Below, piece after piece: positions 5,201-33,243 of a stretch of DNA of 64,000 bases (the first letter of the stretch is position 1; each line of letters begins with the position of its first letter). This DNA comes from Paraburkholderia phenazinium. GTDB taxonomy: Bacteria; Pseudomonadota; Gammaproteobacteria; Burkholderiales; Burkholderiaceae. The stretch is from positions 2,356,001-2,420,000 of the forward strand of contig NZ_FSRU01000002.1 in assembly GCF_900142845.1 (NCBI RefSeq), in the 5' to 3' direction. The notes beneath the pieces were generated by a model that saw only the letters and a program-made list of their open reading frames with translations, did no database searches and was not told where the DNA came from. The translations under genes and the position numbers were made by a program.

Positions 5201-5274
5201 GCGGGCGTCGTATAATGGTAATACCCTAGCTTCCCAAGCTAGAGCCGTGGGTTCGATTCCCATCGCCCGCTCCA
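5201..5274 (+). tRNA. tRNA-Gly (anticodon CCC)
   Basis: This is a complete 74-nt cloverleaf. The acceptor stem GCGGGCG pairs with CGCCCGC, followed by TCCA with encoded CCA. The D arm is TCGTATAATGGTA, the anticodon stem CTAGC/GCTAG has loop TTCCCAA giving anticodon CCC, and the T arm carries GGTTCGATTCC. It is closely similar to the glycine CCC isoacceptor of other proteobacteria. Confidence 0.95.
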
Positions 5275-10009: not shown

Positions 10010-10094
10010 GCCCAGGTGGTGAAACAGGTAGACGCAGGGGACTCAAAATCCCCCGCCGCAAGGCGTGCCGGTTCGAGTCCGGCCCTGGGCACCA
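10010..10094 (+). tRNA. tRNA-Leu (anticodon CAA)
   Basis: This is a class II tRNA of 85 nt with a long variable arm. The acceptor GCCCAGG pairs with CCTGGGC, followed by ACCA. The anticodon stem GGGGA/TCCCC has loop CTCAAAA giving anticodon CAA. The variable arm CGCCGCAAGGCGT and the T arm GGTTCGAGTCC are clear. A weak GC stem followed by T-rich sequence lies at 10123-10160. Confidence 0.93.
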
Positions 10095-31826: not shown

Positions 31827-31856
31827 TTTACACCGGCGCTCGCGTTGTCGTATTCT
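31827..31856 (+). promoter_or_regulatory. predicted sigma-70 promoter of the argD leader
   Basis: TTTACA at 31827-31832 and TATTCT at 31851-31856 are separated by 18 bp. The start site would fall near 31862-31864, at or next to the leader ATG, so the leader message may be leaderless. A perfect 8-bp hairpin (31787-31811) lies just upstream after the reductase gene. Confidence 0.6.
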
Positions 31857-31863
31857 TTCGCCC

Positions 31864-31914
31864 ATGAACCGCATCCAGTCCGAACTTCGACGTCGCCGCT
31901 CGCTGCTCCCTTAG
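31864..31914 (+). CDS. putative arginine-rich leader peptide of argD (16 aa)
   Basis: The frame encodes MNRIQSELRRRRSLLP and then TAG. Five of 16 residues are arginine, four of them consecutive (CGA CGT CGC CGC at 31888-31899). It lies between a promoter and an intrinsic terminator ahead of an arginine biosynthesis gene, the position of attenuator leader peptides. There is no Shine-Dalgarno, but the predicted transcript begins at or beside its ATG. Translation is inference. Confidence 0.65.
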   Translation: MNRIQSELRRRRSLLP

Positions 31915-31924
31915 GGACGCCGCC

Positions 31925-31979
31925 GGCTTTGTCACGGATTCGCGCCGATCAGGCGCATGTTGTTCGAATCACGAAAGCC
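31925..31979 (+). promoter_or_regulatory. putative antiterminator fold upstream of argD
   Basis: Three nested helices are possible: GGCTTT (31925-31930) with AAAGCC (31974-31979), GATTCG (31937-31942) with CGAATC (31965-31970), and CGCC/GGCG around a GATCA loop (31943-31955). The outer helix uses the same six bases that start the terminator stem, so the two folds exclude each other. A ribosome at the leader stop codon would cover about to 31926 and block the outer helix; a ribosome stalled at the arginine codons would leave it free. Confidence 0.65.
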
Positions 31980-32000
31980 ACGGCATGCCGTGGCTTTTTT
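31974..32000 (+). terminator. intrinsic terminator (attenuator) ahead of argD
   Basis: A 24-bp perfect palindrome (31974-31997; half AAAGCCACGGCA) folds into a strong hairpin and continues into a run of T to 32000. It lies 58 bp before the argD ATG and after the leader peptide. As the upstream reductase gene ends about 240 bp earlier, it is better placed to regulate argD than to end that gene. Confidence 0.85.
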
Positions 32001-32058
32001 GTTTTTGCCGTTTCCTTTTTCCGATCCTTCACCCCTGCAACGCCCGGAGCCTGCCGCC

Positions 32059-33243
32059 ATGAATTTCAATGAGTACCCCGTCGAGTCGCTGATGTACATC
32101 ACCAACCGGCCCGAGATCGTTTTCACGCACGGCAAGGGTTCGTGGATCTACGACAACACCGGCAAGCGATACCTCGACTTCATCCAGGGGTGGGCCGTCA
32201 ACAGCCTCGGGCATTGCAACGAAGGCATGATCGACGCGCTGAACAAGCAGGCGCAACTGTTGATCAATCCGTCGCCGGCCTTCTACAACGCGCCGATGGC
32301 GCAGCTCGCGGGCCTGCTCACGCAGCATAGCTGCTTCGACAAGGTGTTCTTCGCGAACAGCGGCGCCGAAGCCAACGAAGGCGCCATCAAGCTCGCTCGC
32401 AAGTGGGGCAAGAAGCATAAGGACGGCGCTTTCGAGATCATCACGTTCGACCACAGCTTCCACGGCCGCACGCTCGCCACCATGTCGGCAAGCGGCAAGC
32501 CGGGCTGGGACACCATCTACGCGCCGCAAGTGCCGGGTTTCCCGAAGGCCGACCTGAACGACATCGCCTCGGTCGAGAAGCTCATCAGCGGCAAGACCGT
32601 CGCCGTGATGCTCGAACCGATCCAGGGCGAAGGCGGCGTGATCCCCGCGACGCGTGAGTTCATGCAGCAACTGCGCGCGCTGACGCAGAAGCACAACCTC
32701 CTGTTGATCGTCGACGAAGTGCAAAGCGGTTGCGGCCGTGCAGGCACGCTGTTCGCGTATGAGCTGTCGGGTATCGAGCCTGACATCATGACGCTCGGCA
32801 AGGGCATCGGCGGCGGTGTGCCGTTGGCGGCGCTGCTGTGCAAGGCCGCGGTCGAAGTGTTCGAAGCCGGCGATCAGGGCGGCACCTATAACGGCAACCC
32901 GCTGATGACGGCGGTGGGTTACTCGGTGATCTCGCAACTGACCGCGCCGGACTTCCTCGAAGGCGTGCGGGCGCGCGGCGAATATCTGCGCGCGAAGCTG
33001 CTGGAGCTATCCGAAGAACGCGGTTTCGAGGGCGAACGTGGCGAAGGGTTGCTGCGCGCGCTGCTGCTCGGCAAGGACATCGGCAACCAGATCGTCGAAA
33101 AGGCTCGCAACATGCAGCCGGACGGCTTGCTGCTGAACGCGGCGCGCCCCAACCTGCTGCGCTTCATGCCGGCGCTGAACGTGACGAACGAAGAAATCGA
33201 CCAGATGATGGCCATGCTGCGGTCGATTCTCGACACCCTGTAA
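32059..33243 (+). CDS. argD: acetylornithine aminotransferase ArgD
   Basis: This 394-residue class III PLP aminotransferase makes N-acetylornithine from N-acetylglutamate semialdehyde in arginine synthesis, and can also serve succinyldiaminopimelate in lysine synthesis. It shows [32 protein letters not shown], the [10 protein letters not shown] cofactor aspartate and the Schiff-base lysine K248 in [12 protein letters not shown] lies 9 nt before the ATG at 32059. Expression is probably controlled by the leader peptide and attenuator at 31864-32000. A GNAT acetyltransferase follows after 16 bp and is probably cotranscribed. Confidence 0.92.

Follow-up and report, generated by a model that had tools for sequence, protein, structure and literature searches.

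We analyzed a stretch of 64,000 nucleotides from Paraburkholderia phenazinium (assembly GCF_900142845.1, contig NZ_FSRU01000002.1), here referred to as the window, whose positions serve as coordinates below, and focused on the leader of argD, the gene for acetylornithine transaminase. With a probability of roughly 0.86, this leader is an arginine-specific, leaderless and ribosome-mediated transcription attenuator, which would sense charged arginyl-tRNA. The proposal is drawn from sequence comparison and modelling, namely the anatomy of the leader, the conservation of its frame, codons and position, strand exchange between genera, model folding, the occurrence in seven families and the lack of a detected ArgR in the family. 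From these we infer the exact start site, translation of the leader peptide, stalling on arginine shortage and arginine-dependent read-through.

The argD leader and its conservation

The elements of the leader are all present at the positions given in Table 1. A preliminary description of this DNA had named a promoter of the form TTTACA-18-TATTCT, a 16-codon frame with four Arg codons, a terminator palindrome followed by a T tail, and argD. Each of these can be read directly in the sequence; the spacer between the -35 and -10 boxes is 18 nt long, and both sequence and fold place the intrinsic terminator between the leader frame and argD.

Table 1. Features of the argD leader in the window
Feature	Position	Strand	Basis and details
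-35 box TTTACA	31827-31832	+	Sequence; 5/6-match comparison across leaders
-10 box TATTCT	31851-31856	+	Sequence; ends 7 nt ahead of leader AUG
Leader-peptide frame MNRIQSELRRRRSLLP, probably leaderless	31864-31914	+	ATG at 31864, 16 codons, TAG at 31912-31914
Regulatory codons CGA CGT CGC CGC (four Arg)	31888-31899	+	Sequence; codon conservation
Protector (1:2) hairpin, predicted	31877-31940	+	Fold, strand exchange, column counts weak; pairs predicted without ribosome: 31877-31882/31935-31940, 31889-31892/31930-31933, 31895-31898/31924-31927, 31907-31910/31914-31917
Antiterminator (2:3), predicted	31919-31984	+	Fold models, strand exchange, column counts; predicted pairs: 31925-31930/31974-31979, 31937-31941/31966-31970, 31942-31946/31952-31956 (hairpin 31942-31956), 31919-31922/31981-31984
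Intrinsic terminator (3:4)	31974-32000	+	Sequence, fold, 440/440 paired cells in 46 leaders; perfect 24-nt palindrome 31974-31997 giving a 10-bp stem and 4-nt loop, T tract to 32000
Rfam RF02884 BcKCsr7 match	31850-32000	+	129.4 bits, gathering threshold 59
argD, acetylornithine transaminase	32059-33243	+	NF002985, 802 bits, cut-off 568; ATG at 32059

The covariance model of Rfam family RF02884 scores above its gathering threshold at the leader. This family is BcKCsr7, "Burkholderia sRNA 7", and has the Rfam type "Gene; sRNA" (small RNA, sRNA). The feature is thus real and not only local; it belongs to a known family. A T-box or other riboswitch was rejected, as RF02884 alone reached threshold at the leader.

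We searched 120 genomes of the same family with RF02884, under strict filters by which weak matches are lost. Matches at E <= 0.001 were obtained in 64 of the 120 genomes (above the cut-off in 47; 9 of 25 genera). Three of the 66 matches (L063, L065 and L066; families, genera and loci carry our own numbers, such as f8, g1 and L080) were short or unrelated, had no argD downstream and were dropped before all counts, leaving 63 genuine loci in 63 genomes. The terminator is kept in all 63, and argD lies directly downstream in every one, its protein alignment to the window's ArgD starting 34-132 bases past the RF02884 match. Because argD always follows, we regard the element as the 5' leader of argD. 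All 63 loci have at least RR in the Arg run, and 57 have RRRR. The leader exceeds chance because the Arg-Arg run, the terminator, argD and the spacing between -10 box and ATG are conserved together across these loci.

A trans-acting sRNA with its own terminator, standing before argD by chance and acting on other messages, would suit the Rfam type and also the published expression. According to a 2024 review (PMC10987360), Bc_KC_sr7 is identical with RIT34, nc5U30 and IG1_2967543; in B. cenocepacia J2315 it is listed there on chromosome 1, + strand, 2,967,641-2,967,787, with a length of 147 nt, as expressed, and the level of the nc5U30 short RNA is altered in some conditions. The review cites Ghosh et al. 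2017 as the original report and describes functional characterisation of the KC sRNAs as not carried out. This expression is experimental evidence for the existence of a short RNA, not for arginine dependence. However, argD follows in 63 of 63 loci, and a trans RNA would not need the kept Arg frame. Moreover, the part of Sass et al. 2017 (PMC5688073) that bears on the 82 "short 5'UTRs" (5' untranslated regions) ascribes their origin to processing or to attenuation, with a drop of coverage at the terminator; in our own reading, the prefix nc5U marks this class, nc5U30 included. Tested against five arg messages, the leader was in no case predicted to pair better than shuffled leaders (argG was best, reached by 10% of the shuffles), which is still compatible with a second role. 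We consider such a stand-alone trans-acting sRNA to be highly improbable.

The start of the leader is unusually placed. The ATG follows a TANNNT (-10) box by 6-8 nt in 62 of the 63 RF02884 loci; the start codon of L044 is masked by N. For a wider count we used the 105 leader rows assembled here, or 103 after removing two f8 duplicates (L095 = L194 and L097 = L196), and required a -35 box with at least 5/6 matches, 15-20 nt before a -10-like box that itself lies 5-9 nt before the ATG. Such a promoter-like pair precedes the leader ATG in 94 of 105 rows (92 of 103 without the duplicates), and a comparable promoter was found before 2 of the 846 plus-strand ATGs of the window, one of which is the argD leader. 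With the -10 box 6-8 nt from the AUG, transcription is expected to start at the AUG or within a base or two of it, which leaves no room for a ribosome-binding site; judging from this arrangement, the leader peptide is probably read leaderless.

The length of the known short RNA agrees with such a start. In B. cenocepacia NCTC13227 (L080), which we take to be a deposit of strain J2315, an RNA of 147 nt that ends with the final G-C pair of the terminator (L080:7603) has its first base at L080:7457, exactly the A of the leader AUG. With the 3' end set at the closing A-U pair or in the T tract, the start would move 1-6 nt into the frame. Under the end convention ascribed to its authors, the 147-nt RNA would thus begin at the AUG.

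The leader frame appears to be conserved as a coding sequence, as indicated by the position of its start, by length changes in whole codons and by synonymous changes within the Arg run. Eight codons precede the run in 46 loci, nine in 8, seven in 6 and six in 3. The in-frame ATG was picked by a script, so the agreement in frame is partly by construction; the ATG picked is the only one in the first 30 bases, except in genera whose -10 box contains ATG. The stop codon shifts, lying 24 nt past the start of the run in g1, g8 and g10 and 39-72 nt past it in the other genera, and peptide sequence and length vary widely outside the run.

The choice of codons is also conserved. An RR run is present in 85 of 86 distinct leaders, and 81 of these 85 runs open with CGA. 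At the first four places of the run, the Arg codons are CGA, CGT and CGC only, never CGG, AGA or AGG. Among the 114 Arg codons of seven window genes, CGA accounts for 2 and CGG for 21. One inosine-bearing tRNA-Arg decodes CGA, CGU and CGC and reads CGA poorly; the run therefore depends on a single tRNA and opens with its slowest codon. We suggest that this codon choice tunes stalling.

These data bear on a second alternative, an arrest leader in which arginine or a relative would bind the ribosome together with the nascent peptide, as with SpeFL and the fungal arginine attenuator peptide, and in which empty tRNA would not be sensed. Arrest peptides require conserved side chains, whereas the present peptide is variable in sequence and length outside the Arg run, and what is conserved includes the codon choice within the run. 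The reading draws on the richness of the peptide in Arg and on the Arg-coding leader of speF as a known relative in kind, as described in the part of PMC6386406 that concerns it. On balance an arrest leader seems to us very unlikely.

A third possibility is that the Arg run is an untranslated by-product of a conserved GC-rich RNA structure, the leader being then a plain terminator or a binding structure for some other factor. In fact, CGACGUCG is itself palindromic, some bases of the run take part in the predicted 1:2 helix, and RRRR occurs in 8 of 666 short ATG frames of the window, the argD leader included, so that the Arg run alone is unremarkable. A by-product would not explain why the AUG is kept 6-8 nt from the -10 box, why lengths change by whole codons or why changes in the run are synonymous, and Arg-rich frames are also found in families with quite different surrounding RNA. 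What a by-product looks like can be seen before argF, where a CGN run is present but relatives do not keep it as a frame. This is the least credible of the three.

Folding models and exchange of helix strands

Without a ribosome, the leader of P. phenazinium is predicted to form a long 1:2 hairpin; with a ribosome on the Arg codons, it is predicted to form the antiterminator, which takes the 5' arm of the terminator. The preliminary description had proposed a nested antiterminator at 31925-31979 that is incompatible with the terminator and is freed by stalling on the Arg codons. Folding with a ribosome on these codons indeed predicts this structure, and the 1:2, 2:3 and 3:4 arrangements are mutually exclusive in the predicted folds, as in the trp attenuator. 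The same description had seen no protector helix; on this point it has to be corrected, as the helix 31877-31882/31935-31940 and further helices inside it are predicted.

We modelled 60 distinct RF02884 leaders at the stage at which the 3' arm of the terminator has yet to be made, and calculated, as averages for each genus, how probable it is that the terminator arm is paired with region 2. Without a ribosome the antiterminator has a probability of 0.00-0.07 in eight of the nine genera and 0.31 in g8. When the ribosome is placed on the first or the fourth Arg codon, the values become 0.96/0.90 in g1, 0.91/0.90 in g25, 0.91/0.91 in g10, 0.99/0.99 in g14, 0.98/0.98 in g8, 0.84/0.87 in g3 and 0.82/0.79 in g24, that is, 0.79-0.99 in seven of nine genera. 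With the ribosome at the stop codon the antiterminator falls to 0 in six genera at all footprints tried, and to 0-0.01 in all nine when the footprint reaches at least 15 nt past the A-site codon. For the window's own leader, upstream pairing of the terminator arm rises from 0.08 without a ribosome to 0.97 with a stalled one, a change that was matched by none of 60 dinucleotide shuffles. An antiterminator that excludes the terminator and forms on stalling at the Arg codons is thus predicted as the dominant structure in seven of nine genera and more weakly in g11 and g12.

The predicted helices were further compared by exchanging their strands among the nine genera and calculating the change in stability. 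The antiterminator was more stable with its own strands than with swapped ones (-14.95 against -13.17 kcal/mol, p 0.004), and so was its extension alone, outside the invariant GGCU/AGCC (-10.83 against -9.25, p 0.007). The protector gave -9.79 against -8.88 (p 0.02), and unrelated control strands showed no difference (p 0.60). A cross-family exchange gave p 0.009, to which we give no weight because several groups consist of one sequence and some arms are badly cut.

Column counts were made on an alignment of 46 of 58 distinct leader stretches, and relatedness inflates such counts. The antiterminator has 24 cells with changes on both sides, compared with 11.9 +/- 2.5 after shuffling (0 of 500 shuffles), and no shuffle and no slid register (0.030-0.082) reaches its covariation score of 0.089. 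The protector score of 0.135 was reached by 10 of 500 shuffles and by no slid register. In the terminator all cells are paired (Table 1), with little variation. The preliminary description had named its own test, whether relatives keep the Arg codons and the stems, and the leader has largely passed it, the antiterminator by strand exchange and less firmly by column counts. The central claim of that description, an arginine attenuator of argD, appears right in substance, with at least RR kept in every locus and the terminator fully paired.

Occurrence in other families and other arginine genes

We searched 200 genomes of the order with NF002985, and 29 of them are above its cut-off. For 28 out of 30 proteins that scored at the cut-off or close to it, the upstream region was examined by eye and by script (G238 contig 553 and G269 were left out). 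An Arg-rich frame just past a -10-like box and then a terminator were found in 17 of the 28, belonging to seven families (f1, f3, f5, f8, f15, f24 and f39). The attenuator thus appears, by its layout, to be spread over at least seven families. None of 13 tested leaders from six other families was recognised by RF02884 at its gathering threshold.

Two families were drawn more deeply. In f5 a leader precedes all 13 argD of the NF002985 type (10 above the cut-off and 3 just below), with RR in 12 of them. The f5 leaders (L157-L169) are rich in Ala codons, have their Arg codons scattered (e.g. RRNNAAARASSAGRGAL) and carry strong terminators, and the sensor in this family seems to be spread out rather than clustered. 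In f8 the layout is found in 17 of 20 regions; L205 has the same layout with a single Arg codon, and two regions are without it. Promoter, terminator and leader are kept in L205 and the Arg run is down to one CGA, which makes it a candidate for a natural loss of the sensor. The leader is absent at L094, L098 and L099. There argD lies close behind a gene whose end, on inspection by eye, looks like that of the ferredoxin-reductase-like gene preceding argD in the window, so the leader, together with the gap, was probably either lost or acquired at this junction.

For comparison across families we averaged the upstream pairing of the terminator arm, whatever its partner, for the naked leader, with a ribosome stalled on the first Arg codon and with one at the stop codon (footprint 15). 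The switch is clear in f8 (0.10/0.58/0.03 in 17 distinct leaders). The single leader of f39 gave 0.56/0.79/0.47, and that of f15 (0.52/0.63/0.10) changes at the stop codon only.

The arginine repressor ArgR (PF01316) was detected in none of 60 genomes of the family, including that of P. phenazinium, and in 9 of 14 control genomes. ArgR operator control was therefore rejected. In the part of a regulon survey that treats it (PMC5343134), ArgR is given as highly conserved in many gammaproteobacterial groups and absent in other classes. A sensor of arginine at the RNA level fits this gap.

A second Arg leader before argF was considered and rejected: the CGN run is present in P. phenazinium, but its frame is not kept in relatives, where a hairpin is kept instead. 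In several genera this conserved hairpin (ACGGCGGCGCCGUCCGGC ... CCGCCGUAUUUGUUUCAUG; e.g. L135, L142, L139 and L143) extends to the argF start codon and is possibly another regulatory RNA. A group II intron (RF00029, 57.6 bits) lies directly before the argF leader of P. phenazinium (L125:1345-1421), and none was recognised by eye at the same place in 29 other argF upstream stretches. Elsewhere in the window there are two tRNA genes (RF00005), at 5201-5271 and 10010-10091, both on the + strand.

Weighing, mechanism and significance

Several results weigh against an attenuator, or against its generality. The stretch 31860-32060 folds no more stably than its shuffles (z -0.37), a measure that is uninformative for the whole leader. 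With the ribosome on the first or fourth Arg codon, the antiterminator reaches only 0.66/0.18 in g12 and 0.28/0.36 in g11, and over Arg codons 1-4 it is weak in both (0.17-0.76 in g12 at footprints of 12-13, 0.28-0.59 in g11). The change from naked to stalled leader was matched by 0 to 0.27 of shuffles among 27 leaders, three per genus. Sliding the antiterminator register by +2 columns yields 27 both-sided cells, which exceeds the 24 counted for the predicted structure. For the protector, strand exchange with other strand limits gave p 0.09, and changes on both sides are seen in three pairs, compared with 4.0 after shuffling and as many as 6 in slid registers.

A ribosome at the stop codon that covers 12-13 nt leaves the antiterminator unblocked in g1, g10 and g8, with values of 0.69-0.98 at 13 nt. 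The proposal of the preliminary description that a ribosome at the TAG masks the antiterminator accordingly stands only for a footprint of about 15 nt past the A-site codon and fails at 12-13 nt in this genus; re-forming of 1:2 may matter equally. Since the early stop of g1, g10 and g8 lies at the edge of the ribosome's cover, masking is borderline there, and release with re-forming of 1:2 would be the safer explanation.

The distribution also has its gaps. No leader was found in 11 of the 28 argD upstream regions (4 of 4 in f4; f21; f30; twice in genus g13 of f1; genus g111 of f8; 2 of 3 in f39). Of the 200 genomes searched in the order, 171 have no argD above the NF002985 cut-off and carry argD relatives of other types; the three upstream regions of other-type argD that were looked at from these genomes (L120-L122) have no leader-terminator pair. 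In the cross-family model the switch is smaller in f5 (0.54/0.83/0.45, 13 leaders) and f3 (0.66/0.86/0.46, 4 leaders), f24 (0.84/0.81/0.38, 3 leaders) shows no difference between naked and stalled and changes at the stop only, and L093 of f1 (0.29/0.74/0.91) is not closed at the stop. Moreover, no such leader was recognised in P. phenazinium before argF, carA or a weak argC match, which is below its family cut-off; a frame containing a single RR pair (MINPMLDRMRRKPCRCRPPNTFRYITDRA, L123) lies about 280 nt upstream of argG.

The proposed attenuator would work as follows. RNA polymerase would start at the AUG or within a base or two of it, and the 16-codon Arg-rich peptide would be translated from the leaderless RNA. 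When arginine is scarce, the ribosome would stop on CGA-CGT-CGC-CGC and cover region 1 (31877-31899), so that region 2 (31919-31946) could pair with region 3 (31966-31984). As 2:3 occupies the terminator arm, polymerase would read on into argD. When arginine is plentiful, the ribosome would reach the stop codon and mask region 2, or leave so that 1:2 re-forms. With region 2 unavailable, the terminator (31974-31997) would fold and an RNA of about 140 nt would be released, which in B. cenocepacia would be Bc_KC_sr7 or nc5U30. If the leader is not translated, 1:2 would also form and transcription would stop.

Classical attenuation is textbook knowledge for Trp, His, Leu, Thr, Phe and Ile/Val, and the control of arginine biosynthesis is usually assigned to ArgR. 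With trpL and hisL of E. coli, the argD leader shares a peptide rich in codons of the product, the 1:2, 2:3 and 3:4 helices (here as predicted folds) and a terminator before a biosynthetic gene; unlike them, it would sense arginine through a probably leaderless peptide, it precedes a mid-pathway gene, and no ArgR-type repressor was detected in the 60 family genomes. T-box leaders of arginine genes, like the attenuator proposed here, respond to uncharged tRNA by antitermination, but they bind it directly and have no leader peptide, and no T-box match was found at the argD leader. Arginine T-boxes are mentioned in PMC1262725, which, in the part on Actinobacteria, reports no RNA element before the arginine operons of that group. 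The account of trpL/rnTrpL of Sinorhizobium meliloti in PMC7298713, as far as covered here, describes a leader RNA that begins at the AUG, an attenuator RNA that is released and accumulates as an sRNA, and no transcriptional repression, which are points of likeness. It differs in its amino acid, tryptophan, in its class, Alphaproteobacteria, and in the trans roles shown there. In the speF leader of Salmonella, the passages on orf34 in PMC6386406 describe consecutive Arg codons in a leader frame and pausing of the ribosome at low arginine that alters the RNA fold; it differs in having two Arg codons, in acting through Rho, exposure of a ribosome-binding site and RNase G, and in preceding a polyamine gene, not one of arginine biosynthesis. 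BcKCsr7 is the same RNA family as the argD leader and is listed as an sRNA with no assigned function in the sources covered. Within the open-access full-text literature, subscription papers being outside the scope, no arginine attenuator for argD was recognisable.

If the reading holds, an arginine gene would be governed by leader-peptide attenuation in a lineage with no detected ArgR, the peptide being probably leaderless and its first Arg codon almost always the rare CGA. A function is thereby proposed for an Rfam "sRNA" filed without one, and the layout is extended to six families whose 13 tested leaders Rfam missed. It is a rather speculative extension, which we consider unlikely, that arginine control independent of ArgR exists across Burkholderiales, with an argD attenuator that arose early and whose RNA of about 140 nt, RRRR peptide, or both also act in trans. 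If true, such a trans role, as for rnTrpL/peTrpL in Sinorhizobium, would connect a single arginine sensor with the remainder of the pathway. The argD leader would in any case offer a simple and testable case for how codon choice and placement of the start site may tune an attenuator.

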